A stretch of DNA of 64,000 nt from the NCBI GenBank assembly GCA_914767715.1, contig OU612067.1:4588001-4652000 (forward strand), in the 5' to 3' direction. The stretch comes from Membranipora membranacea (Eukaryota; Bryozoa; Gymnolaemata; Cheilostomatida; Membraniporidae). Every line of letters starts with the position of its first letter. The first letter of the stretch is position 1. A model generated the notes under the pieces. It was not told the origin of the DNA, did not search any database, and saw only the letters and a program-made list of their open reading frames with translations. A program made the translations under genes and the position numbers. Below are positions 2,711-62,200 of the stretch, one piece after another.

Positions 2711-2718
2711 ATTCAGCC

Positions 2719-2741
2719 AAGGAGTAAACTTTTACTCCTTG
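2719..2741. mobile_element. Micro-palindrome (CAAGGAGT family) with 8-bp flanking repeat
   Basis: A 23-bp near-perfect palindrome (AAGGAGTAAA...TTTACTCCTT) flanked by ATTCAGCC (2711-2718) and ATTCAGCT (2742-2749), 7 of 8 matching. It lies upstream of TAF3 and has the same termini as the copy at 15807. Confidence 0.6.
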
Positions 2742-12744: not shown

Positions 12745-15030
12745 CATAGAGTTATTATATACTCTAGAGTGGACAATGTGTACAAAAATAGCATCAGTTT
12801 TTGTCCTAATTAATTATTGCGAAATCCATAACACACCGCAATCTGGTTGTGCATGGCTAGTGCATGTATCATATAACTCATCATTGAGAATATACGTATT
12901 GGGCTTGGAAATTTAGATTTTTAGAGCGCTTATACCCAATATTTTGGAAAAAAATTTATGTGACACTATGTGGATCACTTGCAGGTATTTTCACTCGCAG
13001 CCATTAGAAAATATTTCTATGTTTTCCCATTAAAATAAGCCAAAATCTCAACCGCAAACACATCATTGTGATGAACTAGAAACTACCGGGCTAGCTTAAT
13101 TTTTTTCACTGCCACTTGCCAGCCATATAGCTGTTTCCTGTCTCTCTTACTTATATGTTACACACTCAAGGGGCTTATTTTATTTTTGATTTAATGAAGT
13201 ACAAGCAGACTGTGTAGGAATGATCGGATGCGGAGGTGTAAAAGTATTGTATATGATGTTGATGTTTACATTTACAAATAAATAACCATCAGAGAAAATT
13301 GCATCACACCACCCCCCCCCCCCCCCTGAACCAAATGATCTCTTTTTTTGAGTATGGTGAAAAATCTGAAATATCTGCAAACCAAATGTCACATCGGTGA
13401 GAATGCGAAATTATATTGGCTTTCTCAGCACTCATATAACCATCTTAATATCAGTTGTGTGGGTAGAATTTTCTGAAAGTTGGTAGAACGCAGAGGGTGG
13501 GTGCATGATATATATTAATTTGGTTAAAAGATTTTAATTCACATTGTATACTATTATAGGTGGTTTAAAGATGAAATAAATTATTCAAGTCTCACATAAC
13601 GCCCTCTGTACTCTTCCCAATTGAAGATTGGAGTTGCAAAGACACAATATTATGGTGTTTTCTACATAATGTGTTGCAACTGATAACTTACTGCAATTTT
13701 CATATAATTTTCCAGACTGAGTTAGGGAATTTAAGAAAATCTAGAGTCAATCTGGACAAGTATTAATCCTGAGTTTTCCGTTTGACGTTTTTTTGCTATT
13801 CTCAGCAGAAGAGTTTATGTATTTATTGATTTAACCTGCTGTGTTGGCTTGAATAGTTTCGGCAATACAAACACGAGTGGCCACTCTGGAGAAGGAATTT
13901 AGAGCGTTTAATGACATAGCCAAACCAAAACCCGAGATCTTCAAGCTCAAAATTTTTGAACCACTGGTTACTTGTACGCATTGTATAATTGGAAGTTATA
14001 ATACTGGACGAATAAAATGAACTCACTGTGTAACATTTCATTTAGAGAGAAAGGACACAGTCAAACTGGCAGGCAAGTGGTAGGGGCAAAAACCGGCTAG
14101 CCAGGTAATTCGGATTTTATCCTGATGATGTGTTTGCGGTTGAGATAACACAAATCATTTTGTCCCCTGACTGGTAAAGAAATCACTTGCAAGTCATCTA
14201 ATAGTGTGACATGAAAAGTTTTACAAAGAAAAAAATCTAAAGAGGATAAAGGCATGCAGCGAACTTTTTCACTTCCAATCGCTTTTCCACAGGCTACTTG
14301 TACCCCATGTTATCACAAATCATCTTCAGTAGCTGGAACTGAACAGATAAAATAAACTGACTGAGTGTGCGACATATTAGTTAGAGCGACAGGACACAGT
14401 CGAAGCCCTGTCATTGCGATTTAAGCTCATGTGTTTGCAGTTGATATTTACTTATTTTAATGGGCGATTAAGAAAATTTTTATACTGACTGGAAGATGAA
14501 ATACCTGCAGGTGATCTAAATGTAAATGGTGTTACATGTGAAATTCTCTGAAAAAATGGCTATAAGTGCTCCATAAACTAAATTTGTATGTCCAATTCTA
14601 ATCTTTTAAATGAAAAAGTCAACGATGCATGCACTATCCACGCACAACCAGATTTTTTTGCGTCATGGAATTGAAAGTGAAAGTACCTGCAAGTGATCCA
14701 CATGGTGTCACAAAAATTTTTTCCCGAAAAAATGGCTATAAGCGCTCTAAAAATCTAAATTGCCATACCCAGTACGTAAATTCTCAATGATAAGTTTTAT
14801 ATAATCTTTATTACTGAACCAATGATCATCTTCTAAAAATTAGAGGCGACCTTTAGAGGTTTCATCACAATATAAGTAAGGAAGGCAACCTGGGCATGAA
14901 AAAAAAAGAAAATACATGATACAGGCACTAGCCATGCACAACCAGATTGCGTTGTGTCATGGATTTCGCAATAATTAAGTAGGACGTTTTTAGCACTGCA
15001 TTGTCCACTCTAGAGTATATAATAACTATG
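12745..15030. mobile_element. Foldback (long inverted repeat) DNA transposon, about 2.3 kb
   Basis: The outer ~140 bp of each side are reverse complements: CATAGAGTTATTATATACTC at 12745 and TAGAGTATATAATAACTATG ending at 15030. The inverted homology continues inward, for example the GTGATCCACATGGTGTCAC region at 14690-14720 against 12955-12985. Internal modules (GTGTTTGCGGTTGAGAT, GAC-AGGACACAGTC) recur two or three times. The element is flanked by TGTTTGCC (12737-12744) and TGTTTACC (15031-15038), 7 of 8 matching, an 8-bp duplication as hAT elements make. No transposase frame was seen, so it is non-autonomous. A C-run sits at 13309-13326. Confidence 0.8.
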
Positions 15031-15325
15031 TGTTTACCCCAGTTAATAATCTAGTTATAAGTTATTGTCTTCCCACTACTGAAGTCCACTTGTTGAGAGG
15101 ATAACTTCTTGGGTCTAAATTTTTTTATTAATGACCAACCAAGTGCATGTTTTCAATAATATTAATTTATTTATTATCATTCTTCTCCAAAGAACATCTC
15201 ATTTTTTTTCGAAAAAAATAGAAAAATTTAATCATGCTAATAAATTTTTATTATCAATTTATTTCACCAGTCTTTAAAAAAATATATTTGGGTGTCTCTC
15301 CTACATCTTTTGCAAATTGATGAAA

Positions 15326-16716
15326 ATGGCATCACGAGCACTGTTTCAGGGACTGAAAGGTCGAGTTCAAACTCAAGCTCCTAGGAGATTTGCCCATGGA
15401 GGAAGCCATGAGGATCATGTGAAGACAGGTGAGATGCATGTGTAGTCTTGTGAGAAACAGTTACCACACATAAGCCTTGAAAAATAGCAAAAAATTCACC
15501 CACAAATTGGCCGGTAGAAAAAAAACCAGTCCCAATCTATCTAAATCTTCTTTTCCAACTAACCACTCATTGATCTAAAGGTGTGGCGGGTGCAACTCAA
15601 CATCATGGGAACTATTATGATGTGTTGTGTGCGGGGTTGTCTTTGAGCATCGTATTATCAGACTCATGGGTACAGACCTGCAATAGAATAGGCCTACTCT
15701 ACTGAGTAGGCTACTACTACTACTCACTCCACTTCAACAACCTACTGAATTTTAAGGAGGGTAATACAATAGGTAATTACTATTAGGTGACACTGATAGG
15801 ATTAGGCAAGGAGTCTTAACTCCTTAAATTAGGTGTGTGTGTGTGAGACTGTCTTACAGCATATCAAACACTGTCTTACAACATCTCAAGACTACCTTAT
15901 GATATATCAATATTGTGTTTAAAGATATGAAAATTGCCTTCACTCATCCATTGCCTGCCAGAAAGTGGTCAATATATCATTTTACAACTGACAACAAATT
16001 ATAATGTGGTAACAGTTAGTCTAAGTGCTCAGACTCCAATGCGCAGGGAGTTACTTGGCGCAAGTAACTCACTGCGCCTTGGAGTCTGAGCACTTAGACT
16101 AGGTAACAGTGTACTTCTTTTGAGCCTCCCACTTACTTCCAAACCAATTGAGCAGACTGTCATCAAGATTTTAAAAGACTGAAAATTTAACTGTCACTTT
16201 TCCGGTCCTTCTGTATGGCCCAAGAATATGATGGTAATGTTGAAGGAATTGTTACAGAACTTGTTACTTCTTTTCCACTTCTTTTTGCAATGATTTGCCG
16301 TGTCTGCGTTGGTACCAGTGGTTAATCAACATCTCGTCATGCGAAACCATACATATCACCATGTCTCTATTTATTTTAGCTAAGTTTTGGAAGATCTGTT
16401 CCTTCACTGGAGTACCTGTCGCTATAGCAGCTACCTACTATCATGCATACTATGTAGTAGATCATCATAAACGGCCAGAACCTTTCATTGAGTACGACCA
16501 CCTTCGACTTAGAACCAAGGTAACAGCTTATTTTTCATTTCACTTTTTTTATTACAACATTTTTACTTCAGTAAAATTAGGGTTGTATTTGATCATATTG
16601 TAATTACTTGTTTGTAGCCTTTCCCATGGGGTGATGGTAACCACTCACTATTCCATAACCCAGAGATGAACGGAATACCAGGAGTCGGTTATGAGGAGGA
16701 CGCTCCTCATCATTAG
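15326..16716 (+). CDS. COX6A: Cytochrome c oxidase subunit 6A, mitochondrial
   Basis: Exons 15326-15428, 16380-16519 and 16618-16716 give 113 residues in frame with a TAG stop. An in-frame ATG at 15320 would add two residues. The first ~25 residues are basic with no acidic residues ([16 protein letters not shown]), as in a mitochondrial presequence. A hydrophobic segment at about 41-58 is the single inner-membrane helix, and the C-terminal half carries the family signature [18 protein letters not shown]. The subunit sits at the dimer interface of complex IV. A polyadenylation-type AATAAA occurs at 17313-17318. TTTTTAG/GTTTGT at about 16757 and TTTGTAG at 17173 may bound a 3'-UTR intron. Confidence 0.95.
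15807..15825. mobile_element. Micro-palindrome (CAAGGAGT family) in COX6A intron 1
   Basis: CAAGGAGTCTTAACTCCTT, 19 bp, between GGATTAGG (15799-15806) and AAATTAGG (15826-15833), 6 of 8 matching. Same terminal sequence as the element at 2719. Confidence 0.5.
16017..16102. mobile_element. 86-bp palindromic micro-element, perfect 8-bp flanking repeat
   Basis: TAGTCTAAGTGCTCAGACTC at the left end is the reverse complement of the right end, and most of the 86 bp folds into one hairpin. GTAACAGT is repeated exactly at 16009-16016 and 16103-16110. It lies in COX6A intron 1. Its TAGTC...GACTA ends resemble the G-rich family at 19221, 30762, 53028 and 58707. Confidence 0.8.
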
Positions 16717-19220: not shown

Positions 19221-19267
19221 CCGGGGGGGCCGTCGGCGAGGGGCGAAAGTCTGGGGGGCTCAGACTA
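19221..19267 (+). mobile_element. Short G-rich repeat, copy 1 (AGTCTGGGGGGCTCAGACT family)
   Basis: Runs from CCGGGGGGG through GTCGGCGAGGGGCGAAAGTC to GGGGGGCTCAGACTA. The AGTCTG...CAGACT end forms a hairpin. Three relatives lie at 30762, 53028 and 58707. No clear target duplication was found here. Confidence 0.65.
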
Positions 19268-20823: not shown

Positions 20824-21449
20824 GGGTACTTATATCAGTACAGGGTACATTTGTGGTGCTTGCCCAAATTGTGCAGCTAGACATGTGTATGAAAATGACC
20901 AGGCAGTCTTTGCGGAAGAAAAGTGGTAAAAAAGGCGAAAAGACCTCACAAACTCAGAGCAGTAACAAAACATACAAAACAACTGTATGAATTTGGGTGC
21001 CTGCCGATGATATGAAATGTTTTCTTTATATTAGGAAGTAGAAAAGTTAGAAGACAACAGTATTCACTTTCTAATGCTAAGCCAATGACATTATTTCTTT
21101 AATTCATACTATTCCCATATATATGTTTGTCCCCCCTTGCCATTCTTAAATTTAAACAGATATTGATATGTGCAGGTATCTCACTCAGTTTTTAATCTTA
21201 TACAAACTTTGTCGATTCTCATATTCTTCAGTCTTTTTATTCCCTTTTTCATCTTTAGTATTCTTTTATAGTACTGTTCCTCCAAATAAAAATATTGGTA
21301 ATTAAAATGAAATCCAATACTATCATTTTACTACATGTGGCCAACCTAGCTTGCCTGTCATAATCTCAGGGCCATCAATGATGGAGCAACAGCATTTATC
21401 AACAGACCACACTTGGTTTGATAGCAAGCACTTTTTACTGAGTATCACC

Positions 21450-21466
21450 AATGAGCTAGTTCATTG
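21450..21466. mobile_element. 17-bp micro-palindrome (CAATGA family), perfect 8-bp flanking repeat
   Basis: AATGAGCTAGTTCATTG lies between two exact copies of GTATCACC (21442-21449 and 21467-21474). It has the same GTTCATTG end as the elements at 25412, 26632 and 33607 and is the shortest member seen. Confidence 0.7.
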
Positions 21467-24204: not shown

Positions 24205-24266
24205 CACAGCCAGCCCTTAAAAGCGGCCGCGATCGCCATCCCGAACGCTTTTAAGGGCTGGCTGTG
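24205..24266. mobile_element. 62-bp palindromic micro-element (CACAGCC family), perfect 8-bp flanking repeat
   Basis: Arms CACAGCCAGCCCTTAAAAGC and its exact reverse complement (24205-24225 and 24246-24266) enclose a short GC-rich loop. CTTGAAGC is repeated exactly at 24197-24204 and 24267-24274. The CACAG...CTGTG ends and 8-bp duplication resemble hAT elements. The right arm shares TTAAGGGCTGGCTGTG with the element at 29716. Confidence 0.85.
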
Positions 24267-25163: not shown

Positions 25164-25346
25164 CAGGCTAGGTGTATGTGTCATCTTGTGGGCAGGCTAG
25201 GTGTATGTGTCATCTTGTGGGCAGGCTAGGTGTATGTGTCATCTTGTGGGCAGGCTAGGTGTATGTGTCATCTTGTGGGCAGGCTAGGTGTATGTGTCAT
25301 CTTGTGGGCAGGCTAGGTGTATGTGTCATCTTGTGGGCAGGCTAGG
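25164..25346 (+). repeat. 29-bp minisatellite, six near-identical copies
   Basis: Unit CAGGCTAGGTGTATGTGTCA-TCTTGTGGG repeats six times from 25164 with a partial seventh at 25338. The copies are essentially identical, implying recent expansion. Confidence 0.95.
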
Positions 25347-25411
25347 GGTACCAGCACTACAGCTATGTTTTGCTTTTTCTTGGGTAAATACAATTTGCAT
25401 CCTGTTGGGAA

Positions 25412-25435
25412 CAATGAACTAAACCTTAGTTCATT
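25412..25435. mobile_element. 24-bp micro-palindrome (CAATGAACT family), perfect 8-bp flanking repeat
   Basis: CAATGAACTAAACCTTAGTTCATT is flanked by exact GTTGGGAA copies (25404-25411 and 25436-25443). It shares 14 leading bases (CAATGAACTAAACC) with the element at 26632. Confidence 0.8.
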
Positions 25436-25754
25436 GTTGGGAAATTGCTATTTTTAGAAATTTCGATTGCTATAGCAAAGATTATTTGCATTGCTGAGAA
25501 ACATTTGAATTTCGGAGTTGTCTTTTTAGCATCAATGAAAGGATACCTTTGTTGAATTGATTCTCCAAGAATGAGTTTGGTGAACTCACTTAAAACCAAT
25601 GTACCTGACTACTCAACCAACATTAATATTTTAACATTTCTCATCCGGCTTGACTAAACATCCATAGAAATCAACATTAATAGTGTAAGTAAAATCATAA
25701 AACAGTTGAACAACCAGACGCGACAGAACATTGTGCAATGCTTCCATGAATTGT

Positions 25755-26415: not shown

Positions 26416-26690
26416 AGTCGGTTTGGCTTAGTGGTAAGTGCATCTGCCACTTTACCAGCCGATTATGGGTTTAAACCCTGTCTTCTGTATGTACAACAAC
26501 ATCGTGCATGCAGGCAAAAGATCCCTCCTGTATGGAATAGCTCTATTCAGGAGGTTGCTGTCATCAACCACTGCAGCTCCGGCCCTGTAGCTCTATGCTT
26601 CACGCTTGGTTAAAGCTGTCAGTGGTTGAAGCAATGAACTAAACCTTTAGGTTTAGGTTTAGTTCATTGGTTGAAGAGTGGCACCTCGGC
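26416..26690 (+). mobile_element. tRNA-derived SINE, copy 1 (carries a nested micro-element)
   Basis: The 5' part resembles a tRNA with Pol III boxes (A: TGGCTTAGTGGTAAGTGCAT; B: GGGTTTAAACCC) but cannot fold as an intact tRNA. The body (TGTACAACAACATCGTGCAT, GGAGGTTGCTGTCATCAACC, TAAAGCTGTCAGTGGTTGAA) matches the inverted copy at 32105-32405 over its length. It lacks a ~56-bp segment present there after box B and has the 37-bp element at 26632 inserted near its 3' end. Confidence 0.85.
26632..26668. mobile_element. 37-bp micro-palindrome inside SINE copy 1, perfect 8-bp flanking repeat
   Basis: Runs CAATGAACTAAACC ... GGTTTAGTTCATT, flanked by exact GGTTGAAG copies (26624-26631 and 26669-26676). 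The other SINE copy has a single GGTTGAAA at this point and no insert, so it is the empty site. Confidence 0.9.
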
Positions 26691-26970: not shown

Positions 26971-29900
26971 ATGTCTCATCAGGTAAATATTATGAGTTGG
27001 CTGGCAGACTGCTAAATCTAGAAGTTTATAGTGCAGATCAAATAAGTAATTTTTTGATTCACCGATGAGATGCTTTACCAAATATACTGAACTTAAGTAG
27101 TCAAATATTGTCCTAACCTATCTATTTCGGTTCAAGGTTTAATTAAGTGTTATAAGTAATCTGATCTAGCCCTTAAAAACCTATTGGTTCCGTTCAAATA
27201 CCAAAGTAGCTGGTTTAGATTATATCACTTTATTTTTGACAGGAAGCCCCACGTCCTGTGAACAGACCCGCTAGAAAAGCTGTCATACAGAAGGTGAATC
27301 CTAAACTGGTGTCCTCATATGCATATGCATATTATCCCTACTATATGTTATAGAATTTTACACCTTTAGATGAAGCCCCATAGTGTTTGGTATGAGCAGG
27401 CTGTAGGCTGCACGCTATATTTCCGTTTCCGAAACCCATAAAAAAGTAATGAGTTGTTATTCTTCCATTATGGAATGGTTTATTGTTACCTGATCGCTAC
27501 CGTGTAATCACAGAGTAAGGGTATAAGGATATATATGTAAGGATATCTGAATATATTATTTATTCATATACAAGGATATATGCAAGGATATTTGTATGAT
27601 GATATATGTAAGGATATATATTAGGATCTAGTCTTACTCTGTGATATAACAGATGATGATTGCGTAATTTCTTTATTCGTTATGTTATATCATTATTCGA
27701 TTACTGTTATGTTAGCCTCGTTTCTTAAATCCATTGGCTGCGATGTGTAATATATAATTTTCTCTGATTTATAATTTTCTCTGATCGAGATCTCACTTTG
27801 TTGTCAGATATACACAGCATATCTCTGCTGCTAATCTAGCAAGCCGCCCATACCAGCAGGTCAGATTTCAAACTTACATCTTTATACTAGAGAACGGCAT
27901 GACCTTAACTTTAATTCTATACCAGCTTGAATTGGAACCAAAACTATGACTTATATTAGAGACTAAATAACACAAACAACTAGCTGCAAATTCGAATTCT
28001 CTCTGTATTTTTATTCGGAAGGTGCCGGTATTTGTCCGATTGTAATGACACTGGTTTGTTTTTAGTGATAGGATATTTACTATACCTTCAGCTCGTAATA
28101 GATATAGATGCTCTGGTGGCCAACCAGATCAAGACACTTGGACTACAGTACATACACGATGACTTTCTAACTAAATGCCCCTCAGGTCGCTACCGCACCG
28201 TTAAATATCGGGGTACATGGGGTAGAGACAGCTTTTTAAGACATCTCATACATACACTTAATAATATACTATTCTAAAAAACTTTTTATACAACAGAGAT
28301 CTGATTTTTTCCATGTTTTTCTTTCTTGTCAGTATTAACAACGTATTTCGTGACAAATCCATCCATCCGTCCGTCCGTCCGTCCGTCCGTCCGTCCGTCC
28401 GTCCGTCCGTCCGTCCGTCCGTCCGTCCGTCCATCCAAAATACTGAATTGCATCAGATAGAATGTCTAAGGGGATGAGAAACTGGGCTTTCTGGATCTCA
28501 TCTCCATATTCTATGTAAGTGATGATTAACACAAGTTAATGGCAGGCAAGTTTCCTGTATCAGTATCATACAACAAAGAACTTCCTTTAAAAATGTAGAC
28601 TCAGGGATTTGCGAGGAACATTTCCTTACTATAATTCTGATAAAGCGATTTTTATCTAAGGGATAAGGCCAGGTGTTACCCATAGAGTTATGGGGATAAC
28701 TCTATGGTGTTACCAAGCTATTGGCTCTTTCCACAAGTTTTTTTATTTTAGGCTACCATATATACATCATTAATCTATAATCGTCATAGAAGTGTAACAA
28801 AAAATTTAGAGATATCATTCATGAAAGTAATTTCAAAGCTTCTGCAAGACATACTTGATATTGTGAAATTTTGATGAAACATCACTTTTAAGTAGGCGAT
28901 AGCATGGCGCATTCAAATTCTTCAAATCCAAAGTTAAGCCTCCCATTCTTAGAATCCTTGCAATCAACCCACTCTAATAAGATCAAGATCCTACCTGAGT
29001 GTATCCGTACAACCATTAGGTCAATAGACTGTTATCACTCGATCTAGGAGGGGGCGTTCATCTTAGTCATTTTCATCCTTTCGCAACTACAAGGACACAG
29101 CCAATTGATTGTGCTGGTTTAGATGCCTCAGGTTTTCTCTTAGATCTTTGAAATATTGAACTTCATCAGTTACTTGCCCTGAGAGATCCCTTCATCCTAA
29201 TTATATAATGGTTCTTAAAAATAGACGGGATTTTGTTAAATATGATATTTTCTTCCACAAAGTGAGATAAAAATAATATGGCAGCTCAACTTGATTAAAA
29301 TTATGTTTTATATTCGTTTCAGAGAATAGGATACTGCATTTCTTGCTCAAATCATGAAGCAAAAAAAGCTGAAATAAGTCATCTTTGTTTGGTAATTTTG
29401 CCAATTTTCATTGGTACACCTCACAAGTTAATCATATATGCAATGGAATTGAATGCAATATTGAGCTTATTATGATTAAGAAATTCGTTTTGTTGCAAAA
29501 AAAAAACCTTACAATGATGTAATTACAAAAAGTCAAATCTAACCTTCAAAAACGTGTCTTTGTTCAGTTTGTATTGTGCGTTTAGAGAATCATACGTTAC
29601 TGATTTGACTTTGATGTTTCAGGTTAGAAATGTTTTTCTACAAAACACAAGCAGCAAACCCTCCACTGATGGACTTTACATTAGCGGATCCCTCGACTCT
29701 ACTACCTATGTCTGGCACAGACCACTGTTAAGGGCTGGCTGTGGTGTCTGGTTGGACACAGTAATAAGTGGTTAGACAAGATGTCTTCTAAGCTTTTCCA
29801 GCCAATCACAATAGAATTAACAGCTGGTGGTGACAGCATATTCAGAGTATATAGCTCCAAGGTTAGTATAGGCTGCCTTGTTCCTTGTTTTGCACAGCAC

Positions 29901-32900
29901 ATGCAACATCAATCTGAAAATTTAGTTTCTTAGCAATTTAATTTCAGGGACCCCAACAATATTAGGGATCAGTTATAGAATAGAATATTTTTAAGTTGAT
30001 CTAATTGATAATAGAAGCTTGTATACTTTTGCTCCAGACTGCTGGCAAAATATATTTTGGTTCCCCTTTGGTTAAAAATTTTAGCAACTGTGATGAGTTC
30101 ATGCATGAACAGTCCTTGACTCAAGTTGCTTCCGTGAACTACCAGCTAAAATATTTTTTGTTCTCTACATAACGGCTATAAATTGAGAAATTTTGTTCAG
30201 ATGTAGATACCGTATTACGCAACTGCAAGAAAGAGTGGCATTAGTGGAACCTGATACTTTCGAACAAATGATTTTTCATGTTATTGTGTAACAATAGTGT
30301 GTAACGGAAAACAGAAAACAAGAACACAAAAGGTGTCAGCGACAAAAAATTTGACGGGGAAAATTAAATGAAATCTGTCAGTCAAACAAGGAAAATACTC
30401 ATTTATTAGCAGTAACAGGTTTCACTGTAACGGCATAATTGACTACCCCACTTCTTGCCACATTACCCCTTGTGTTTTTTTCTTGCTATATTCTATATAT
30501 GACTGTATTTGTACAGTCATTCTCTAGACAGTGAGCAAAGGCCATAGAATGGGTCAGCAGCCTGTAATTGTAATTGACCTTTTAACTTTGAAAATACAAA
30601 TTTAATTCTGTCATAAACACACTAATTTATTCCAGATTGATGAATTTAAATTCTTGATCACAAGTTTCATCTTCTGACAGTTCAGTATAACAATGTCCAG
30701 TGTCCAAAACCACTTATTTCTCCACACTGTTTCTATGAGTAGAAAGCATGACTGTTTTCTCCCGGTGGGGGCCGTCGGCCAGGGGGGGGGCAAAAGTCTG
30801 GGGGGCTCAGACTAGACTGATTAATGACTGATGCTCAAAGGTTGTCATGCGTTATACACATTATTACGCTGTATCAATAACTTTTGCTGGAGTACCTATG
30901 CACAATAGCGACAATGCAATTAACAACAGTCAGATCTATAAAGACTTTTTTGTTCCAGATATGATGAAAGCGACAAAAGTTTGATATTACCTGTCATCAC
31001 TAACAATGGTATACACTGATATCTTCTTCTAAACAACCCGGTGGCTCACTCTAGTACCGTGAGAGGTAAGCGAGGTTGCCAGAAGCCTCAATTGAAAGAC
31101 CACCAAGTCAGTCATAATGTAACTATCCACCTGTATTGCATGTCAGGGTTGAAAATTTTAAATGCCTGAAATATGACTCTAATTCATAGCGCTGACAGGC
31201 TCATCTTCAGGTCTTGTCGCAGCAAGCTTGTATTTTGATTTCGCTATTAGGGGAAGGTCTGTATTTAATTGTCTCTTTCATAAGAGCCTCAACCCGTTTA
31301 TGGCCGTTATCAGGCTCTGGTATTTTAAGTCCTAGCAGTCAACATGTTATTATATGCTTGGTCTACAAAGTCTAAGCACCTAAACTAGGTTAGGCATAAA
31401 TGTGAATCTGACATTTTTATTGGCTAGATTGAATTAGAATGCACCGGATCAGGCTTATCAGATTACAGTAAAGGGGACTTGATACCGATCCTAGATTTCA
31501 TTGATTGTTTTAATATGAACCTTGCACCTCATTCCGAGGTACATCATAGTACTGATATGAATCACCACTGGCCTGTAAAACAAAAGTCAATGTCGTTGAT
31601 TCACATAATGGGAGGGGGAGGCAACAAAGATATGAAATATAGATGCGATTAGTAATAAAAGCTCCAGCATAATTTTTCCAGGATCTTTCCACAGACCACC
31701 CACCCAGTTCTACCCACATTGAAATTCGTTTGCCAGAAATTTTAGAGTCAATAAAAGTCCATACATATAATATTACTTTAAAAATGTACGGTCAGGTGAA
31801 AAGGTCATGAAGTCCAGATGACTGACTCCTAATTAGCAACTTACATTGCCTCTTCAGCCGTCGGCCTTTGAGGCACCTGTTGGTCTGTGAGAAGAACAAG
31901 CTTGTGATAAAAATGATAATAGTATCTTTGATTATCAACCCTAAATAGTTTATGTTTCTATTTTTAGGAGATCGTCTGGGTTATAATCCCCATAAGATCT
32001 ACAGTAATAAATAATAATGTTGCTGTCTGTCTAGGTAGTCGATGACTGCACTGAGGTGCTGCTTAGGAAAAGGTTTATAGTGATGACTAGGTTTCCGAGT
32101 CGTTAGTGTCACTTTTCAACCACTGACAGCTTTAATCCAGCGTGAAGCATAGAGCTACAAGGCCGGAGCTGCAGTGGTTGATGACAGCAACCTCCTGTAT
32201 AGCGCTATACCATACAGGAGGGTTCTTTGATCTACATGCACGATGGTGTTGTACATACAGAAGACCTCCATTATTTATAGTCCTGATCTGAAGGGACTAT
32301 GTGATCAGTCAAAGTCAAACAACTTTCGGTACCGGATGGGGTTTGAACCCGTAACCGGCTGGTCAAGTAGCAGACGCGCTTACCACTCAGCCAAACTGAC
32401 TAACTCAGGTATAAAATCAAACCTGAGATGGCCAACAACAGAAGGCTGTGAAGGCCTATGAAGGCCTCGAGCCTTTCTGGCTCTGAACTAAGCTGTTGTT
32501 GTTATTGGACTCATTTACAAGTTAAATGTGCTGAACTTTGCTTCTTCCCAATGAGTTGGGTCAGGTTTGTTGGTTGGTAAGGAGGTCGCCAAGCTGGCTT
32601 AGAAAAAAAACAATTTATCTGAAACTTGTACATTGAATGATATTTGTTTATTGATGAATTTTGCATAGTGGTCTTGTTTAATGACCCCTCCATAGTATCA
32701 CCTGATAAGAATCATGCCATAACAACTGTATACAAAATTGTGTTGTTTGTTTTTGTTTGTTTGCCAACGATCTATTGATCACAAATCTGAACTTACTGAT
32801 TGTTGCCACACAAGCATAACCATATTCTACCGTGACCTCAATCATGGTATATTATTTATTACCCTTACATATGGTAAATGGTATGATCCCCTCCAAACTC

Positions 32901-33433: not shown

Positions 33434-33606
33434 TCACATGACAACCTAACCTCATAAATGAGATGAATACCGATCAGCTGTACCCTCTTGATTAACCCTT
33501 AATCCCACAAAGATTGTAACAAACTTTGGCGTTAGCAGCTGACAGATTTCTTGCGTCATCAGCAACATGCTTACAGCTTAATTCTTACATGGCTCACATA
33601 TCAACC

Positions 33607-33649
33607 AATGAACTCACTCCGGGAGTTCATTGTATTAACAAGTTCATTG
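33607..33649. mobile_element. Micro-palindrome (CAATGAACT family) with 8-bp flanking repeat
   Basis: AATGAACTCACTCCGGGAGT-TCATTG followed by a second AGTTCATTG end; flanks TATCAACC (33599-33606) and TATCAAAC (33650-33657), 7 of 8 matching. The duplicated right end suggests a repaired or doubled copy. Confidence 0.6.
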
Positions 33650-39403: not shown

Positions 39404-39439
39404 CATAAACATATAAATACTCTTATTTATATGTTTATG
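39404..39439. mobile_element. 36-bp micro-palindrome (CATAAAC), perfect 8-bp flanking repeat
   Basis: CATAAACATATAAATACTCT then TATTTATATGTTTATG, flanked by exact GTATAACC copies (39396-39403 and 39440-39447). Confidence 0.85.
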
Positions 39440-44200: not shown

Positions 44201-47200
44201 CGTTGTGGGTTGCGTTCATTTACCTCAAAGTAGTTTTCGAGTCTCTTGCTGATTTTGATGGACGAGTCAAGTACAAGCTGAGATAGTTTGATATTCCTGA
44301 ACTTAGATGAGTTACTCTGATAGAACGATGATAATGTCCGACACATCTCAGTTCTCTCACTTACTTGTAGTGGACTGAATAATCAGATTGAATCAGTATA
44401 CAAGATGTTACCACAATAATTATAACTCGTACTTGTGAGGGAGGATAAAGAAAGGAGCTCACCAAATATGAGGTTTGGAATAGACACTAAAAATTATCAA
44501 GTAGTTTAGTGGAATTCTTTAGTTGGACCAGCTTATTCTGTTTATATGAGCTCATTGCATTGTAACGTCATCGACGCCTTCTATGTCAAAAATAGCAACC
44601 TGCGTTTTATGGAAAACATTCATAACTTGTTCTGCAGTATTCCAAATTTATATCCAACAGTCAAGTTCTAATACTCAACTTTCATCCCAGGATTAATGAC
44701 AGAGCAAAAGAGGTAATACGAGTAGATGTGTGGGGGTAACCCCTCTATCTCACCTGGTTTTAGATTGCAGAATATGAGGCAGGCAGTGTCTGGATGTCTC
44801 GAGGACGAACTTCAGGTTGTGTTTAAACTTCTCGAATGATATACTCAACCTTCTATCCGGTAGTTTAAAGCCTAGATCTTCAAGGCTTTTCATGTACAGT
44901 GTAGATGCATCTGTCCACTCAAGCATGGCACAGTTTATCTAGACCAATAATACATAATATCATAGTTAAGTCCCTTTTGATTATGCTTCCGCTAAATGGA
45001 TGTTATATTTGTCACAGCAGGGTATGGGTGCACCCATCTCCACTCATAACACTTGTTTTTTGTTACTATACTATGATTTTCATATTTTAGTTCTGGCTGG
45101 GATTTCCTGTTGTTACTCTACTAAGCAGTTTCTATGTTCATGACAGCAGGCTTTGTCTTTAAAAGTGGATAATCCCATATTCTACAGAGCCTTCCAGTTG
45201 GTCTAAACGCATGTGACTCTCAATCAATGGGTAAATGGCTGTGATCTCTCCATGAGGGCCGGTGAGAATAATCCACATCATGATAAACTTATCCCACCGA
45301 AAACGAAGTTTGAGGTGGTATTATGGCAATGCCCATGAAGCAGTTCTCATAGGGGACTTCTGACAACTTATGTGGCAGCTGAGCCCTATTTTTGCACACA
45401 ATAAACACCTACAGTTTTGCCTATCCATCCTCAATTATTGTCAAGATAACTAGATTCATACCTGATCTTCTCTTTGGGAGTAGTATGAAAAACAGCAGGT
45501 GATGCTATGACATAGAAAACTTGCAACAGCCAGCACAGGTTTTTTGGCTTTTTCTAGCCATTTTTATTCAATCCCATAGACATAGTTTTGTCTATGTCTA
45601 TGAGATTGCATCAAAATGTTTTGTCTATGTGCAATCCTCAATCAATCATCAGTGCAACTTAATAAAGCCTAAGTGCCTGGGCAGTGAGCAAAATGTGTAA
45701 AATCTGCTTCAATAGAAATATCGTTGGTTAAAATTTGCTCAAATAGAAATTTCTATGGTTCAAAGGCTAATATCTAAAAGAACAGTCATACCTGAGCAAA
45801 TCATTTAAGCCTTAGTGCCTGGGCAAAGCGTTTAAAATCTGCTTTAATAGTATTATCAATGGTTCAAAGCCATCTGCTTTGATAGAAATTTCCAAGGTTC
45901 AAAGGCTAATCACTAAAGGGGGCAGAGATACCCATTGTTAAACTCTGTGCTCCTAGGAGATATCTTATAAAATAATTGTCATGTAATCTGCTTTACACTT
46001 CTCCCATGTGAGTTTAAATAACAGCAGCTATTGCTATCATTTCTTAATTATTTTCATTCATTCATGCAAACTTGTCAAACTTCGTTTTCGGTGGGATTAT
46101 TCAGTTCTCTTATAGTAGCTGCCCATGTACGGCCTGTCATAAGTTCAGATAGCTGCAATTGCAATCTCCTTATTATGTCAATTTTTTATCTTGACCAAAT
46201 TGCCTGTATAATTTGTTGTGTCGTTGTATTTGTGACGTGTAACACCAATCATAGATATTCCTATTCGTTAAAAGCTTGCCACAGTTCTTTTTTTACCAGG
46301 CACAGCACTATTGTGACATGAGATGAATTATGTCTCAGTAACAATTACCTAATGGGCTGCAAAAAAAAGCTGTGAGTTTAATTCTCAGACATAGTTGTGT
46401 TTGTGAGATATTGTCGGATTTTAGAATTTTACACCGCTAATTCCTATTGGGTAGAAGTAAAAGTCCTGCATACCTCTAGATCAGCTGTCGGCAACCTGCG
46501 GCCTATTTTCCAGTGCGGCCTAATGAACAATAATTATTTTGCGGGCTGATTGTGGCCTTATGCCTGAAAAGATATATATTACACATTAATCTCGATTCCC
46601 ATCTCGCATTTTGTAATCTTGATATTCAAGTATGTAGGCACAATATATTTTAAAATAGTGGCCATTCAGCATTAAGCATGTAGCTTCCAAAGCCGTTTCT
46701 AGACATAATCATCTTAACTGTATTGGTGTTAAATCCTTTTTCAAGTGCCCTATTTTCAAAATAACCCAGAACGGTGACCTTTGGAAATTCGAATAAAAAT
46801 TTTCGTTAATATCATAGTAATTAATTTTTTTAGCAAATCTGTCACCTTGAACAAGAAATGCAGATAAGTATTAACAAGTTTTCATGTTACAAATGCTCCT
46901 GCTTTATCGCTGAAATGTTCCAGATTGCATCTAATTTTACAGGCATTCGCCAAAAACTTCCCCATTGCGGAGGGATGCCAGCACCCCTCCCACACCCACC
47001 CTGCCCTTTTCCATACACATGCAAAACTTCACAAGATTTTTTAAATTAGTATTTCTGTTGAGCTGAAGTTCCTTGCAACATACCACAGCTTTTACAAATA
47101 AATCTGTTTTAGTTTGTACATAGTTGTTACTCCGGTTCCGATTCTATACCTGAAAGATATGTTGCGCCTAATTGTGTTGAGCCTGTGTAAAATGTGGAAT

Positions 47201-53200: not shown

Positions 53201-56200
53201 GGCCAGAGAACATGTAGTATCTGAGTAGAGCAGACGAATCCAATCACACAAGCACACTTTAGTGTCATCTGCTCAGAGGGAGTTATCTGATCAAACTCTA
53301 TTAGCAACTGTCCTACAGAAACAATGTAAGGGTTTGAGGTAGTAGATGACAGATTTTAATATTCATATGCTGGATGATCATAATCTAAAAGCATTGCCTG
53401 TCATATGTGGCTAGATTGAGATCCTTTCAGGATGAAATTGGTAAAAATCTGATTCATCCTCAAGAGCAACCTCAACCACACTCTGCCTCTAGGAATCGGT
53501 GAAGAAAAAATAGGCCTGTATTGCAATTTGTATTAATAGAATGTACAAAAATGCAACTAATGTAGTGCTTTAAAAAACTACCAGGCCCACTCTTGAAATA
53601 ATGTAGATTTCTACTTCTCTCACCTTTAAGACTGTTAGGTATTTTATACAGTGAGGCAGCAAAGTGAATACCAGGGGAGACAACACATATCCTCAACTCA
53701 CATTCATCTCTCTCAGCAGGCAGCTACAAATGTAACAGTAAAAATTTGTTAGCTGCAAATTGAGGTCAGCATTGAGCAAAGCCACTGGTACTTACTTCCT
53801 CGAGTCAAATAATGATACATGACTAACCTACCAAGACAGGATACTTTTCCAGATCCTTCAACACTATGATTTGGAGGTTACGCCAGCATGTACCAAGTTA
53901 ACACTAGCGCCCAGCAGTGGAGCAAGATTGAGGTGCCAATGGTTGATTTGCAATAACTTACATCATTATGAAAAGCCCATTTATTTTTGGTGTGGAGCAT
54001 ACTGCGCTTTCTCTCTATCACTGTGTGATGTCCGGTTATCCTCTCAAACTCAGGCCATGTGTAATCATCAAAGTCAGACTGGAACTGTAACAGGCTCACT
54101 ATCTGTAGCTGGTGGGTGGTGAGTAGATCTGTGAGTATATGACGGATATAACCAGGCATACCCTGTGTCTTATCTATCAGAAGTCTGAAAATGGATGAGA
54201 CAAACAAACCAGTGATGCAATGAAAGTTACAAAGCCTGTAGAATTCACATTTTATCAAAATTTTGACTTGTATGGATAGCTCCCGTTCTAACTGATTCAG
54301 ATTATGGGTTGTGCCAGGCTTACCTAGAGAGTAATTATATCATTCCGCATAGTTGGTGGTCTTTCAAGTTTTTGTTTAAAGGACTGCCAGTACAATTTTA
54401 CTGCATCCTGTTATTGCACAGATATATTATGACATGTATTTACTGCTCAACTTCCACCGGTAGAGCGCAGACATTGATCATCTGACAAGCAACAGCAGCC
54501 AAATCATCGGGAGGGATAGACTCCATTCTGTGTCTGTGGACTGTATGCAGCTCTAGAAATCTGTCTATGTAGTCTATAGGTAGAGCTTTCTCATAGTTCA
54601 ACATTGCTGCAGAAAAAAACAGAAGATGAAATTTTGACAGACCGGCATATACCCGTCGAAATTAGAGAATGATAAGACGATAAACGCCCATTATTTGGGA
54701 ATGAGGGAACGATAACTTTCCTATGAAAGCACGTTTCTTACTACATCAAGTTTGAAAATGATTTGCATGCATTAAGAAACACTCCAGTACAGTCAGTGAG
54801 CTGAAACTGGCTAGATGAAGGCAAATCAAAATGTAAGAATTTTAGATCAATCTTGACTTACGTATAAATCGACTGAGAACATTTAAATGATGATCACTTA
54901 CCCATAACTACCATCACATTAGTTCTCCCACTTATACAGTTGTGGACAAACTTCCAAGAGATTGGATCCATAAACTCTGCATCATCAATGATAATCAGGG
55001 CAAGCTTATTCTGCTGGTCTAAGGCCTAGAAAAGAAGAAAGCTTGAATTTATTAATTGGCATTTCTTAAAGTGTGCAAAGATCTAGCAATGATTATAATA
55101 AGTTCTTAAACGCCAGTTGGTGGCATTCCAGTATCAAACATTCTTCTCATCCAGGGAGTAGTTACTGATGGTGGAAACAGTTAAACTAATCTATGACAAA
55201 TTTTCCCATTTGTTAAATGAAAATTTTTAATATCACCCGAAAACACATATGGCAACAATATCTGCTGCGGCAGGACTCGGTGCCCTAGTGCATCCTCAGA
55301 GGTAGTACCATAGAGCTATTTATATAGTATATTATAGTCTATGGGTAGTACTCACCAATGCCATAACGCTATCGAGCACCTGAATCACAGTGTCACTATG
55401 ATCATCATCAGTAGTAGAGATAGTAAACTCCTCCATATCACCACTTAGTAGTAGTGGATACTCTACACATTTCTCTATAGCCTTCACTTCTTCCAGTGAG
55501 AACTCCTAAGTAAAAAAAATGGTACTGTTGACAGGTCTGAACTTGGAATGCAGATTATTTATGTCTTATTTTACTGTCTTATTTATAATATATGACAATG
55601 TCTAGATGGAGCTGACATGAATTACCAGTCCAATGATTTGTAACTCTGAGCATGACAACTATGGATTAATCAGACAAAAATATAATATATAATAATATGT
55701 ACATATATTATATATTATAATTCAGCAGTGATGAACAATATTCTACTAACCGAAAGTAACATCTCAGATAGCACCTCGCATCTCTTTAGAGCTTTACCTT
55801 CCTCAAAAGGCAGCTCCATCAGGTTAGCTAGTATAGTCCTCACTACCAGATACGGCCTACAATGAGTAGGCAGCTTTTATAATCTCAGACAAATCAAGTT
55901 ACTAAGATGGGATGAGATGATTTAGCACGCTGAGCGTTGACCATAGCAAAAAGTCAATTGAACAAGACATAGCATATCATAAATTATATTGTTTCTGTTA
56001 GCACTTCATAGTATGCATGCCTGAGCAATGGTAGCATATGTTTCAAAAAATTCTGAATGCAGTATTCGAATAATTTTTCAATGAACCATGTCATACCTGT
56101 TCTGATCGTTGCTTGTCAGGTTAAAGTCTATTACTATCAGATTATCCATCGCATCGCCCTGTGCTGCTATCTCTGACAGTAATCTGGATGTCCCTGACTC

Positions 56201-59200
56201 TGTCATTCCCTCATATAGTAGTATATTCTGTGTGGTTCCCTGAGCTCTTACACTTGATATCTCACTGCTTAAAGATTTGATTGAGTCAATGTTTCCAGGC
56301 ATTATGACTTGCCTCCTCCTTTGTATAGGCGGTAGTTCACACAGTACTGATTTCTTACTTTGCCTGCTTCTTTTCCTCCTGTTTGATGTAGCACCGCTTA
56401 CAGGTTTCACTTCGGTCGCATTTTGATTATAATTTCCAGGCTGATGAGATGGCCTGTTTTGGTCAAACTGCTGAGTAGATTGATCTGGATACCTTATTGC
56501 TGGTACATCTCCCATACATGCTGGAGACTTAGTTTTGACCAAGCCCTTGCTATGAATGTCTTGAGGCTTCGAAGCTCCAGAATTTATTTGTTCCTGATCT
56601 CCCTCGTCGAGCATTTCAGCAGAATACAGACTCGGACCAGTGATGTGTATTATAACATCATCTCGATTTTGAGCAGGGTGTTGTTCAGTTGATGTGAGGT
56701 CATTGGTAGGTCCTCTTCCCTCAGTTTCTTCTGCATTAGCTGCAACTGATGAGCCCTCATTCTTTTTCAAGCTAGTTTCATTTCTATCTTTGACAAGTTT
56801 ATCTGGATCAGTAAAAGATAACTCTCCACCTGTTTCATTCTCTGCAGGCTTGTTTTTGACTGAATGTGTACTTATGTTGTTGGCCGGTTTTCCGGTTTTA
56901 ATTGCCTCGTCAACCACAGCGCTATCAGCTTTGTGCGATGGATCCATGACAAAATCTTTTCTCTGATCATGCCTGTTGCTGTCGGCATTTTGACTGGATT
57001 TCCCCACTAGTTTCTCCTCTTTACTGTCGTCAGTCTGATCATCATGTACAAGTGGCAGACTGCCTACATCAGCACTGGCAGCAGCAGCTGATGAATGGTC
57101 GGTTTTGTGACTCTGTTTCATGTTTACTAAAGCGGAATATTCAGGTACATTGAGATTCATCTCAACATCAATGAGATGTGATGTCAAATCTCTATTGAGT
57201 TGATCACTGCTGGTTTTGACTTCACTTCCTGTCTTTTCAGCATTTTTTTCACGGGACCCGTGAGACTCATGAGTCTCATCTGCCTCCTTCGGATCATTAT
57301 TCACCGTGTGGTGACCAGATGATTTAGCTATTGTCTGGTCTGGTATCTCCTCAGCTGACTCCATTCTAGAGATGATCTGTTTCAGTTCCTTATCAGCCTC
57401 AGCTGTAGCTATAAGAGCTTTGAGCTTCTCATCGAACACCTTGAGTTCTCTGAAACAACCATTAAAGTATATAACATATATAATAATCAATATAAAAAAT
57501 TTTTTTTACCATATTTACTACAAATGTGTTCATGGATACAGCATGTAAACAAAAAATCCCATTTAAAATTATTCCACATTGCAAATTGCCTATAATAAAA
57601 ATCCGGAACATAGCATGTGACTCTTCACTTATTTGTAGAGCGCTATGACTAATTATCAATCTCAAAGATTGCAATCTGTTGATTCCATGAATGCAAAGGT
57701 TCTGAACTCAAATCACAGTTGGGAATATCATTGAGACTCTGGGTTTCAGTGAGTTTGAATAGCTAGGAAAATAGCCTTTTGACTCAACAAAGCTGAATAA
57801 GGTTTTTCAGTCAACCTCTCTCTGGCGATGACAGGCCTGGTGTGGCGATGTAGTGGCAGGGCCAGGAAGCTTATTTGTGATGAGTCTTCAGTGTATTCTC
57901 TGATGACCCCGACATCAGTCAGACCTTTCAGCTCTTTAGCCGGGACGTCCTTAAAATGATGCTGTCTTAGCCTGGAGTGAGTATATGTCTCTGTGTCACA
58001 TGACACCATTCCTGTAATCATAATAAAAAAATCATGATGTGAAGAGAACGTGAATGTCCATAGCAGTAAAATTTGATTTGACTTGTCGATGAACTTTTTT
58101 TTATTAAATGTCATTTTAGTTTTCTAGGCAAAAGCTTTTCGGTGTCAGTTCAGTGAATTTATTAGAGTATACAGAATGAACTTTTAACTACAAATACAAT
58201 GCAGAGTCTGTTATCAAGACAATTATGCAGCGGCAAAATCCAACCAGCTGTGATCGTGGCTTGGAGAGCTACCAGCAACTGTTTGTATTGGGTATTTGCC
58301 GGTCTAAAACTAAACTGAAAATATTCTTTACGAGTCTTCCAATTGGCAATAACCGTGTTCGTTAACACGCCTGAATGCAACAATTGACAGATCTATTGGT
58401 AACCTCGTAACTGACAAGGTCAGATCCAAACCAGTTGTTTTTATATTATATATTTATGTATTCTGCCGAAAAATAGCAATTTTCTATGTAATGCAACTAC
58501 CACGATGGCCGAGTGGTTAAGGCGTTGGACTTAAGATCCAATGGACGTATGTCCGCGTGGGTTCGACCCCCACTCGTGGTAAGACAATTTTGGTAACTAC
58601 ATATATTGCATACCTCTGATGCTCTTACTACCACCCTCAATATTAATCCAGCTGCTATTTTGTTTAGCAATGGATATTCTGCTGTTTGTTCAGCACTGGC
58701 CTACTGCCGGGGGGTGGGGGGCGTTGGGCATAAGTCTGGGGGGGGGGGGGGGGGCTCAGAATAGCCTACTGCGCGCATAATATAAAATCAATTAAATGGC
58801 AGCCAATCAGAGCAGAGCCAACACATTAGTTATTTATTTGGCTCAAACTAAATGTCAACACTATTCTAATACTTCAGATGCTTTCAGGGGTTGAACCTAT
58901 CAATAATATTATAATATGTTATTATCTGAAACCTAATCATTTGTAATTGAAAAGCTTATGAACTTTTGCTCTTGTAAAGGAAATCAAAGAATTTAAATAG
59001 ATACAATAGCTGGTTTTTTGAGTTGTTGTTAATCAACTCGATTATACGTTGGTCTCACTCAGTGCAACATCACCACCACGATGGCCGAGTGGTTAAGGCG
59101 TTGGACTTAAGATCCAATGGATGTATGTCCGCGTGGGTTCGAACCCCACTCGTGGTAAGACAATTTTGGTAACTACTACCCATTCACCATGCCAGATGTT

Positions 59201-62200
59201 GATTAGCCATGGTCATAAACTATTTCTATTTAACCAAGAGTCATATAAATAGGCTTACCTGGATAATGACACATGAGTCGAGCGGCCATGTTGACCATTT
59301 TACCAATCACTGTGTATTCATGTCTATAATCATGTCCCACAACTCCACAAAACACATGACCTAAAAAAGGACAGATAACTACTCATCGGAAAATTGATCC
59401 GGGTCAGACGTATTAAAGTGCTCACACATTTCATGGATTGCTGGTAATGGCATTCAGTTTACATGACACTGAAATGCCGCTTCTCATAACATGGGCAGAA
59501 TTTGAGGGTTGAAAATAGGGTAAGACAAGGCGGGATATCTCAGGTTTATTGAAAAGTGGGGGGGGGGGGGGGAAGCATACACCTGATGAATGGTGTCTTT
59601 ATGATTAAGGATAAATATGATGACTATACCTGTAGTAACACCTGCTGAGGCTACCTCTACATCAGGTAACGCCTGTAGTTTCTCTCGGATCTTATAAGCA
59701 CACTGCACTGCATGCTTACAATCATAACTGTCTTTCTTACCCGGTAAACCAAATATGATCAGGAATGAACAGCCCTACAACACAAAAAAGGATACTGTGG
59801 CAATAAGTGGTATACTGTACTAAAGTTACAGAAAAGTGACAAAGCAATCCATCGGCGATGGGTTTCCAAATTAAATCTCAAAGTCTTTCTTTCTAGATTT
59901 TAGATAAAGCTTTGAACACAGATTCAAGTTGCTGATCCTAAGTTCTAAGTCTGGGAGGACAACTAGAACAAGTAGTGGCGGGTGATATTGAAAAAGTCGT
60001 GTCACGCCTTGAGACCCAAATTTTGTAATATTACCAGAGACTATGGATATATTTATAGACTATGGATATTATCTATAGTCTCTGATATTACTACGCCAAC
60101 ACAGAGGGAACAAACTTGTTCTAGAATATAATATTATGAGTCTAGGGAACACGGGACGTAGTTCATATATACACCATAGATACTTTTATAATATCAACAG
60201 GATGGATAATAAACAAACCTTATCAAACATGACGACTTTGTTAAGACTAGCCTTGAAGATATCTAGTTCTGCTGCGATAGCTTCATAAGCCTGTTGTAGT
60301 ATGTCACATTGTTTACTGGCCTTGAGATCTTCACTGGTCAGCTCAAGGTTTATAAAGGCGATAGTACAGGATCGTATCTCCGAATGGTACTCAATTCCCT
60401 GGCCAGCTTCCAGCTGAAATAATTTTTTGTGTGTTGGAATTGAATAGTACAAAAATCTCTTTATTAACAATGTTTTATGTTATTGCCTTCATAAGTCAAA
60501 TATTCATTAATAAAATACTGGCCTTTGGAGCAGTAGAGAAAGTGTAAGGATTCCCATTATAAAATCATGTCATCAAAATTCTGTGGCAGTTGGTTTGCCT
60601 ATAAGTGCAGTTGAAGAAGCAAGAAGTTTACACATTGATATTGTTAGCAAACTAACCAAAGTTAGCATTTTTTTCCATTTTTAAAGCCTACTGAGTGAGT
60701 TAATATAGCTAATAATTAGTCATAATCTCACCTTATCTAGCACAACATCGGTGACATATTTACTGAGCAGCTCATTCAGATGTACTCCTGTCTCAAACGC
60801 TGCACTCCTGAAAGCTTCATCCACTGGAATAATTATCACCAAAAAAAACAATACAATACTTTCAGTTTCCAGCATATGCTAAATGGAAGTAAGGGACAAC
60901 CTCCTTGATGGCATCTGTTAAAATTATTATATTAGCGTAGGAATTGTCTTCACATGTTGAAAACTCAACTGGGTAGCTAGTTTTTTGAGTAATTTTGACA
61001 GGGGATGGAAGGGTATTTTCCATCCTCACTGAGCAGGGAGAAGAGGACTTCCTGCTGGTTTGAATATGACAAGGGTTAGGACAGTATAAAAGCATGTGAT
61101 TTACGTGGATGGTTGTCAAATGGTCAGTGAATCAAGTTACTTTTAACTACTCAGTTATCTGTTAACTTTCCAGGAACCCTCTTTAAACAAATAAATAATA
61201 AATAATTCGTTTCATCTGTCTTGGTGATCGTTTATGAACCTGCAACAGAAATCACAGAATACACTTCAAGAGCACATTCAATACAACGTCTAACCTTCAT
61301 TGCTGGCCTCTGTGGTTTCTTTAGCCATCTGCATTTTATTTTTTGATTCTTTAGAAAACCTGAAGGGAAACTTGAACAGAGATTTATCACCAGCGTCATC
61401 AGTTTTCTTCTCCATGTCCTTATTCACAGCCAATCCATGTACCTGTGTAAGTGTAAGTGTAGGTGTAGGTGTAGGTGTAAGTGTAGTGTACGTGTATAGC
61501 ATGTAGATTATCAAACGCTAGTACAGCATCATCTTAATAAGGCACTCCATTTTATTCAACTGGAACATCCACAACAAACTTTTTTATTAATATTTAGACA
61601 TCGATATTTTTTATTTGTGACCGGGTCATTTTTGTAAGATCATAGTTTTTCGAGTGGATTCCAATGATGTATGTATGTACAGCAGCATTGCTAGAAAACC
61701 TGTCTGTTATAGCAAGGAAAGTCTAGTATAAGCTAGGCTAGGTGTCCAAGGATTACAAGGGTTGGTCTTGAATTTTTGCAATGTTTTCAGAGTGTTTAAT
61801 CTGATCACACACCTTGACATGTTGCTCATCCTCCATCACAGTGAATGAATACTCCTTCTGGTCACAGTAACTCCACATGTAAGGGGAGACGATGACGTCG
61901 CCTGATTTACTCAGGTGTTCGGCAGTCTTAGCATCCTTTACTGCAGACCCGCTCTCACAGTAAAAGTAGTGCTTACCTCGCCCGAATACAAAGAAGTACG
62001 TCCGACCAAGCGACAATGCTATCAGATAAGGAGGAAATTAGTTAAACTGCGATGATTTGGTTTAGGAAGTCACCTAACACATGTTGTCCTCACAGTCAGA
62101 ATATATCAGTAATGCAGGCTCTATAATACTGGTTGGAATGGGAAGCTTCTTCTCCTGTTTTTGCAGCAATAAAAGAGTTCTGAGCGTTCAGTCAATTTGT

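Follow-up and report, generated by a model that had tools for sequence, protein, structure and literature searches.

The closest described counterparts of the short palindromes considered here, found in a 64,000-nucleotide stretch of the genome of the bryozoan Membranipora membranacea ('the window'; C3:4588001-4652000), are the repair products of P-element excision in Drosophila melanogaster. The P transposase leaves 17-nt 3' tails of the terminal inverted repeat (TIR) on the donor ends (PMC2895639; this and the other papers are cited for particular passages). In Rad51-deficient flies the joining products include recurrent short-microhomology joins and templated insertions, and one of the commonest junction classes keeps almost no TIR (PMC2895639, Table 1). 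The fly junctions consist of a target site duplication (TSD), up to 17 nt of TIR, an optional insertion, inverted TIR and the second copy of the TSD, favoured joins being recurrent. The bryozoan palindromes are alike in anatomy, but they are natural, number thousands and belong to several families, whereas the fly junctions come from the laboratory and from one engineered element in a Rad51-deficient background. The limit to the retained TIR appears to be 20 nt of a 33-bp TIR here, compared to 17 nt in Drosophila P.

Other described elements, among them 1360 and Galileo of the P superfamily, share particular properties with those of the window. The TSD of 1360 is the 7-bp GTTNAAC and that of hobo, a hAT element, is the 8-bp GTNCGNAC (PMC3276498), whereas Galileo has a TSD of 7-8 bp, GTANTAC (PMC4168063). 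The likeness to 1360 and Galileo rests on a 7-bp TSD (Galileo also 8 bp) and a palindromic GT..AC-like target; the passages of the two papers cited here do not describe scars. The TIRs of Galileo are long and internally repeated, a property that the window element at 12745-15030 may share. The TIR of zebrafish Pdre2, CATACCTGTCAAC, nearly equals the ends of the window element at 719-1134, and both have 8-bp TSDs (PMC10983969). The scar families differ from Pdre2 in their termini and, in several cases, in a TSD of 7 bp. Excision footprints in rice also represent genome-scale excision repair with filler DNA, but the 94 putative events were recognized by comparing two genomes (PMC4423477), whereas here one genome suffices because remnants of the TIR mark the scars.

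For the most part, the palindromes of 17-55 bp that end in CA..TG are very probably excision scars of P-superfamily-like elements, and not hAT 'micro-MITEs' (MITE, miniature inverted-repeat transposable element). This assignment is based on the length and motif of the TSDs, the fly-like anatomy of the junctions, the P transposase domains in the genome and the Pdre2-like element in the window. The scars keep about 5 to 20 letters of each element end, joined in many ways.

Target duplications of the palindromes

The first-pass annotation of the window named 13 palindromes, said to be bordered by 8-bp direct repeats and ascribed to hAT transposases. Flanking direct repeats are present at all 13. 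The palindromic arms are plain at 11 of them, whereas pairing at 29716 is confined to the outer five bases, and the G-rich site 58708 is doubtful as a palindrome. The uniform length of 8 bp has to be abandoned. The repeats are exactly 8 bp long at 24205, 28681, 39404 and 55309 and match in 7 of 8 positions at 29716, but they are exactly 7 bp at 2718, 21449, 25412, 26632 and 60035, 6/7 at 33606, and 9 bp at 16017 and 58708. At the sites originally given as 21450, 25412 and 26632 the supposed eighth base is part of the element. The scars and scar-like sites of the window, including one at 45575 beyond the 13, and an empty site are as follows, 'scar' being used in the sense of the probable assignment above; all are unstranded except the empty site.

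2718..2741: scar, CAAGGAGT terminus, 24 bp, 7-bp TSD ATTCAGC
21449..21466: scar, CAATGAACT family, 18 bp, one arm altered (CAATGAGCT), 7-bp TSD GTATCAC
25412..25436: scar, CAATGAACTAAACC joined to TTAGTTCATTG, 25 bp, 7-bp TSD TTGGGAA
26632..26669: scar, CAATGAACT family, 38 bp, 7-bp TSD GTTGAAG, within a repeat resembling a tRNA-derived short interspersed element
32106..32265, minus strand: paralogous repeat, empty site for 26632-26669; similarity stops 8 nt beyond the joint
33606..33632: scar, CAATGAACT family, 27 bp, imperfect 7-bp TSD (6/7)
60035..60084: scar, CAGAGACTAT family, 50 bp, repeated filler, 7-bp TSD ATATTAC
28681..28706: scar, CATAGAGTTAT+GGGG+ATAACTCTATG, 26 bp, 8-bp TSD GTGTTACC
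39404..39439: scar, CATAAACATATAAATA arms of 16 nt, 36 bp, 8-bp TSD GTATAACC
55309..55343: scar, CATAGAG family, 35 bp, 8-bp TSD GGTAGTAC
45575..45629: complex scar, CATAGACATAG terminus, 55 bp, TSD 7/8
29716..29743: scar-like, CACAGCCAGCCC right arm, left arm only CACAG, 28 bp, TSD 7/8

The interior of the scar at 25412 recurs once among the matches listed, at C1:3542095. An extra AGTTCATTG end at 33641-33649, near the scar at 33606, suggests that the latter is a complex join. The scar at 55309, read by eye, comprises about 17+18 nt of diverged TIR, and the scar at 45575 has a paralogue at C1:10083961, where a 21-bp form occupies the same target. A palindrome-like stretch of 41 bp with the CAAGGAGT terminus lies at 1962-2002 and has no TSD; on its left it is flanked by GCTGAAT, the reverse-complemented form of the 7-bp duplication at the 2718 scar, 750 bp away.

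TSD length follows the terminus. The CAATGAACT, CAAGGAGT and CAGAGACT termini have 7-bp TSDs, the CATAGAG, CATAAAC and CACAGCC termini have 8-bp TSDs, and TAGTC has 9-bp TSDs. The 7-bp TSD is exact at 13 of 15 genome loci whose flanks were fetched, matches in 6 of 7 positions at one and is absent from one. Thirty exact 7-bp TSDs were collected, from 26 scars and four parent elements; the set omits a tandem copy, the one site that lacks a TSD, and two scars and two parents whose TSDs are imperfect. They conform to the motif nTnnnAn, each of its two fixed bases (T at position 2, A at position 6) being present in 25 of the 30. All 30 are different and the insertions are therefore independent.

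CAGAG-like ends resemble those of hAT elements; hAT excision is not known to leave TIR tails. The 8-bp duplications that hAT transposons make are seen for the CATA and CACAGCC families, for which a hAT source may apply. The three 7-bp families, whose TSD length and target motif match 1360 and Galileo and not the 8-bp hobo, make it very unlikely that hAT transposons produced the duplications as a whole, as had been proposed.

The frequency of the palindromes was measured in the assembly of 339,339,785 bases in 18 contigs. The pattern CAATGAACT-N(0-30)-AGTTCATTG, which misses scars with a very short arm (e.g. a scar of 20 bp in all), has 1818 matches genome-wide, compared to one for the control, the same pattern read backwards. 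Two 100-kb blocks, not picked for their content, were sampled in addition to the window, giving 264 kb. A detector of intervals of 12-70 bp that end in CA..TG and have both inverted arms and a TSD found 23 there (14 in the 200 kb and 9 in the window), compared to a mean of 0.1 in 20 shuffles. Other terminal dinucleotides give 0-2 intervals each, except TA (18) and AT (14), which are taken, uninspected, to be AT-rich repeats. When any terminus was allowed, the two blocks yielded 16 and 13 candidates, compared to shuffle means of 1.8 and 2.5 (10 shuffles each). In the window the exact-8 and exact-7 candidates number four and nine, respectively, whereas 30 dinucleotide shuffles average 0.03 and 0.6; one of the four and about three of the nine are not scar-like, and the candidates at 43038, 48981 and 60281 resemble chance. 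A nearly perfect 53-bp hairpin at 33004-33056 (candidate 33018) has GGTCGACC on both sides and mimics a TSD-flanked palindrome because GGTCGACC is itself palindromic. In viral contigs, used as a negative control, the palindrome pattern occurs in 45 stretches (46 matches), which are taken as chance because their best flank match is only 6/8 or 5/7. Extrapolation from the 14 intervals in 200 kb gives roughly 24,000 per genome; 'of order 20,000' scars is only a rough figure because some of the 14 are long-armed or chance-like.

At least two of 38 scars compared with the sequence retrieved have a paralogue that lacks the insertion and has one copy of the TSD. The empty site for 26632 is the inverted repeat copy near 32115, which remains similar until 8 nt past the joint, and a site related to 60035 lies at C1:10066214-10066275 (62 nt, 81%). 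Both favour insertion over growth in situ, the second more weakly. In favour of chance hairpins are the AT-richness of the genome and the intervals obtained with TA and AT termini. Nevertheless, the shuffled and reversed controls already speak against chance hairpins or growth in situ for the CA..TG families, and together with the empty sites they leave this explanation a negligible probability.

A slightly altered copy of the scar at C2:6077062 occurs in the duplicated segment C2:6035758-6036027, and the scar was therefore inherited. A palindrome of the B subfamily described below is found twice inside a tandem repeat array (L049 and L050, C1:264454-267617) and has apparently multiplied along with it. 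Eight plus-strand copies of CAATGAACTAAACCTCA at C3:18945700-19382641, spaced by 40-52 kb with one 160-kb gap, may represent a single scar that belongs to a large tandem array.

Parent elements and retained termini

The CAATGAACT sites contain two TIR subfamilies, A (CAATGAACTAAACCT..) and B (CAATGAACTCCCTCTTCC..). A plain search with the 20 outermost nt of B revealed pairs of ends, one on each strand, that are separated by about 880 bp. Five such pairs were read at both ends. Their TIR is 33 bp long, CAATGAACTCCCTCTTCCTCAGGAATAACAACA, and is intact at nine of the ten ends; the 7-bp TSDs are exact in three pairs and match in 6 of 7 positions in the other two. Genome-wide there are 136 ends with at most three mismatches to the 33-bp TIR, compared to none in the control. 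Sixty of the 100 ends listed (of 136) form 30 pairs, 21 of which span 863-892 bp, and among the matches listed the paired elements form a size series of 541-5163 bp. The longest pair listed, C4:21953135-21958297 (5163 bp), is a candidate autonomous element; comparison with the matches to the RNaseH and GTP-binding insertion domains of P transposase placed none inside it. The CAGAGACT family has a parent at C1:10042058-10043319, 1262 bp long, with a perfect 33-bp TIR and a 7-bp TSD. Two larger elements lie in the window itself, both unstranded.

12745..15030: 2286-bp element, CATAGAGTTAT terminus, internal inverted repeats, TSD TGTTTGCC/TGTTTACC (7/8)
719..1134: 416-bp non-autonomous element, ends CATACCTGACAAG/CATACATGACAAG, exact 8-bp TSD GTTCTGAC

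The former shares its CATAGAGTTAT terminus with the 28681 scar and is a candidate parent of the CATAGAG scars. The proposal of the first-pass annotation that several cut-and-paste DNA transposon families were the source is upheld, and larger elements with the same ends are present for the CAATGAACT B type, CAGAGACT and CATAGAG. A 413-bp element at C1:10079225-10079637 has ends related to those of window element 719-1134.

The interiors were compared at 48 sites from the start of the 1818-match list, two nested matches having been dropped. They are distinct at 36 of the 48, and one 26-bp form occupies nine. B-type sites make up 14 of the 48, which corresponds to about 530 of the 1818 palindromes, compared to about 68 elements (136 ends); scars are thus estimated to outnumber the surviving B elements roughly 8 to 1. 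A separate set of B scars comprises 80 listed of 173 both-strand matches, each having one arm of at least 18 nt and located on C1-C4. Here 61 of the 80 interiors listed are distinct.

The left arms of these 80 scars match the TIR over 18 nt in 27 cases, 19 nt in 19, 20 nt in 24 and more than 20 nt in 10. The probability that a match continues along the TIR is 0.66 after nt 18 and 0.64 after nt 19, but falls to 0.29 after nt 20; matches beyond this point may represent a single chance base or the beginning of the opposite arm. None of the 55 B scars with room for it retains 26 nt or more of the TIR. In this subfamily, therefore, no more than about 20 nt of the 33-bp TIR survive in the small palindromes, and the drop at nt 20 fits a fixed cut inside the TIR, not free internal deletion.

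The first-pass annotation offered two origins for the palindromes. One was that a transposase moved, as units, hairpins of 17-40 bp that comprise hardly more than their termini. Such micro-MITEs would account for the distinct TSD of each copy, for the recurrent 26-bp form and for the TSDs of the long-armed hairpins at 24205 and 16017. However, the common interior expected of a MITE is lacking in both samples, the retained TIR ends near a fixed position, at least in subfamily B, and full-size parents are present, so that mobilization of the hairpins as such is improbable. The other origin, 'extreme internal-deletion products', comes close. After P excision, gap repair is frequently interrupted and completed by joining (PMC2895639), and longer elements form a size series; both would suit resident elements that lost their interior and kept only their ends. 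Interrupted repair should leave ends of any length, yet none of the 55 scars with room keeps 26 nt and retention drops at nt 20; a rejoined staggered break at excision is favoured, and ordinary internal deletion is unlikely to the same degree as the micro-MITEs.

Proposed excision, repair and transposase

In the proposed mechanism, a cut-and-paste transposon of the P-superfamily type would insert and create a 7- or 8-bp target duplication. It would depart by a staggered cut, one strand being cleaved at the element border and the other inside the TIR, about 20 nt in for the CAATGAACTCCC subfamily compared to 17 in Drosophila P. Each broken chromosome end would then retain a single-stranded TIR tail. 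End joining, presumably of a Pol-theta-like kind, would trim the tails, align them or add a few letters, and seal the break. The predicted product is a TSD, a TIR fragment, an inverted TIR fragment and the second TSD; one scar would represent one departure and be inherited thereafter. Among the 80 B-scar joins, 35 have no added letters and 45 have 1-15.

CA..TG ends are typical of the P superfamily, as in P and Pdre2, and they are the ends enriched over the shuffles here, the parents starting with CAATG and CAGAG. TIRs of the superfamily are 30-50 bp long (PMC3688188), and those of the B and CAGAGACT parents fall within this range. The target motif resembles the palindromic GT..AC-like targets, with TSDs of 7-8 bp, of the superfamily, and the retained TIR has a fixed maximum near 20 nt (80 sites, one subfamily), the corresponding value for P being 17. 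The 8-bp TSD of hAT elements occurs with the CATA and CACAGCC termini only.

The genome contains P-type transposase fragments, with 134 matches to the RNaseH domain and 102 to the GTP-binding insertion domain; neither domain has a match in 14 control genomes. One frame of 762 amino acids matches the solved P transposase (E 3e-38), and the ends of the element around it are not resolvable within 6 kb. We infer that the cutting enzyme is a P-superfamily transposase and that it cleaves at nt 20. An apparent A terminus beside a P transposase fragment at C2:7594129 turned out on reading to be another scar.

Several observations weigh against the excision-scar interpretation. A comparison of 140 P-domain places with 72 ends found no P transposase inside an element with scar-type termini; one such place and one end lie 12 kb from each other, and no others come within 15 kb. 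For subfamily A no parents turned up among 100 listed of 165 ends, where the only opposite-strand pairs within 15 kb are 22 and 44 bp apart. The 26-bp form shared by nine sampled sites could also reflect amplification. The nt-20 limit comes from one subfamily, from sites on C1-C4 preselected for an arm of at least 18 nt. The added letters resemble the TIR weakly: at 24 sites with at least four of them, the summed longest match is 130, compared to 103.6 in shuffles, and some templated insertions are clear while the overall signal is weak. The comparison junctions come from Rad51 (spn-A) mutant flies, and the common fly class that keeps almost no TIR would escape the search used here (PMC2895639). 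Finally, long-armed hairpins at 24205 (62 bp) and C2:6059587 (67 bp), with arms of about 30 nt, break the 20-nt limit, and the TAGTC elements with their 9-bp TSDs do not fit. The window elements of these kinds, all unstranded, are:

24205..24266: long-armed hairpin, 62 bp, 29-nt arms at 90%, 8-bp TSD CTTGAAGC
16017..16101: palindromic element, 85 bp, TAGTC terminus, 9-bp TSD GGTAACAGT (9/9), different class
58708..58763: G-rich TAGTC-type element, 9-bp TSD GCCTACTGC, different class

The long-armed hairpins and TAGTC elements may be true tiny elements of other kinds, the 24205 hairpin possibly a true tiny MITE.

P-element excision scars are known from the laboratory, and hence this kind of structure is already known. 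A natural scar population of such size in one genome, or a 20-nt limit, was not found in searches of the open-access literature, which does not include most subscription journals. It is probable, although held with less assurance than the excision origin itself, that the genome is a heritable ledger containing of the order of 20,000 natural scars from several P-like families, one of which cleaves its 33-bp TIR about 20 nt from the outer end, with about eight scars per surviving element in one subfamily. If so, each scar names a departed family, preserves an old target site and records one end-joining event, and the history of transposition and of break repair could therefore be read from a single assembly. 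Transposon histories mostly count arrivals, whereas scars that keep TIR would add departures, family by family, without a second species. They would constitute a large natural sample of the repair of a defined break in inherited animal DNA, and the cleavage position that they predict, nt 20, is testable biochemically. For annotation, they would account for short TSD-flanked palindromes that repeat finders may ignore or call tiny MITEs.

Other elements and repeats

A scan of the window for elements of up to 6 kb returned 50 pairs, mostly chance-like, without a shuffle control. A stricter scan of the 264 kb gave 10 pairs, whereas 10 shuffles gave 4.0 on average and 8 at most. Weak pairs are therefore indistinguishable from chance; pairs were used only if they had an exact TSD and a long TIR, or known termini.

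Four G-rich copies of the TAGTC family, ending in CTCAGACTA or a variant, lie at 19235-19267, 30782-30814, 53037-53069 and 58720-58763. A 9-bp TSD is found at 58699 and a 10-mer with one mismatch at 19208; the other two copies have none. The window also contains a reverse-transcriptase open reading frame and a small Maf gene; among the named relatives of the latter the best are molluscan (about 55%), other relatives reaching 89%. Tandem arrays of 13 bp (AGTGAGTACATTT) and 29 bp occupy 50583-50880 and 25164-25366, respectively.

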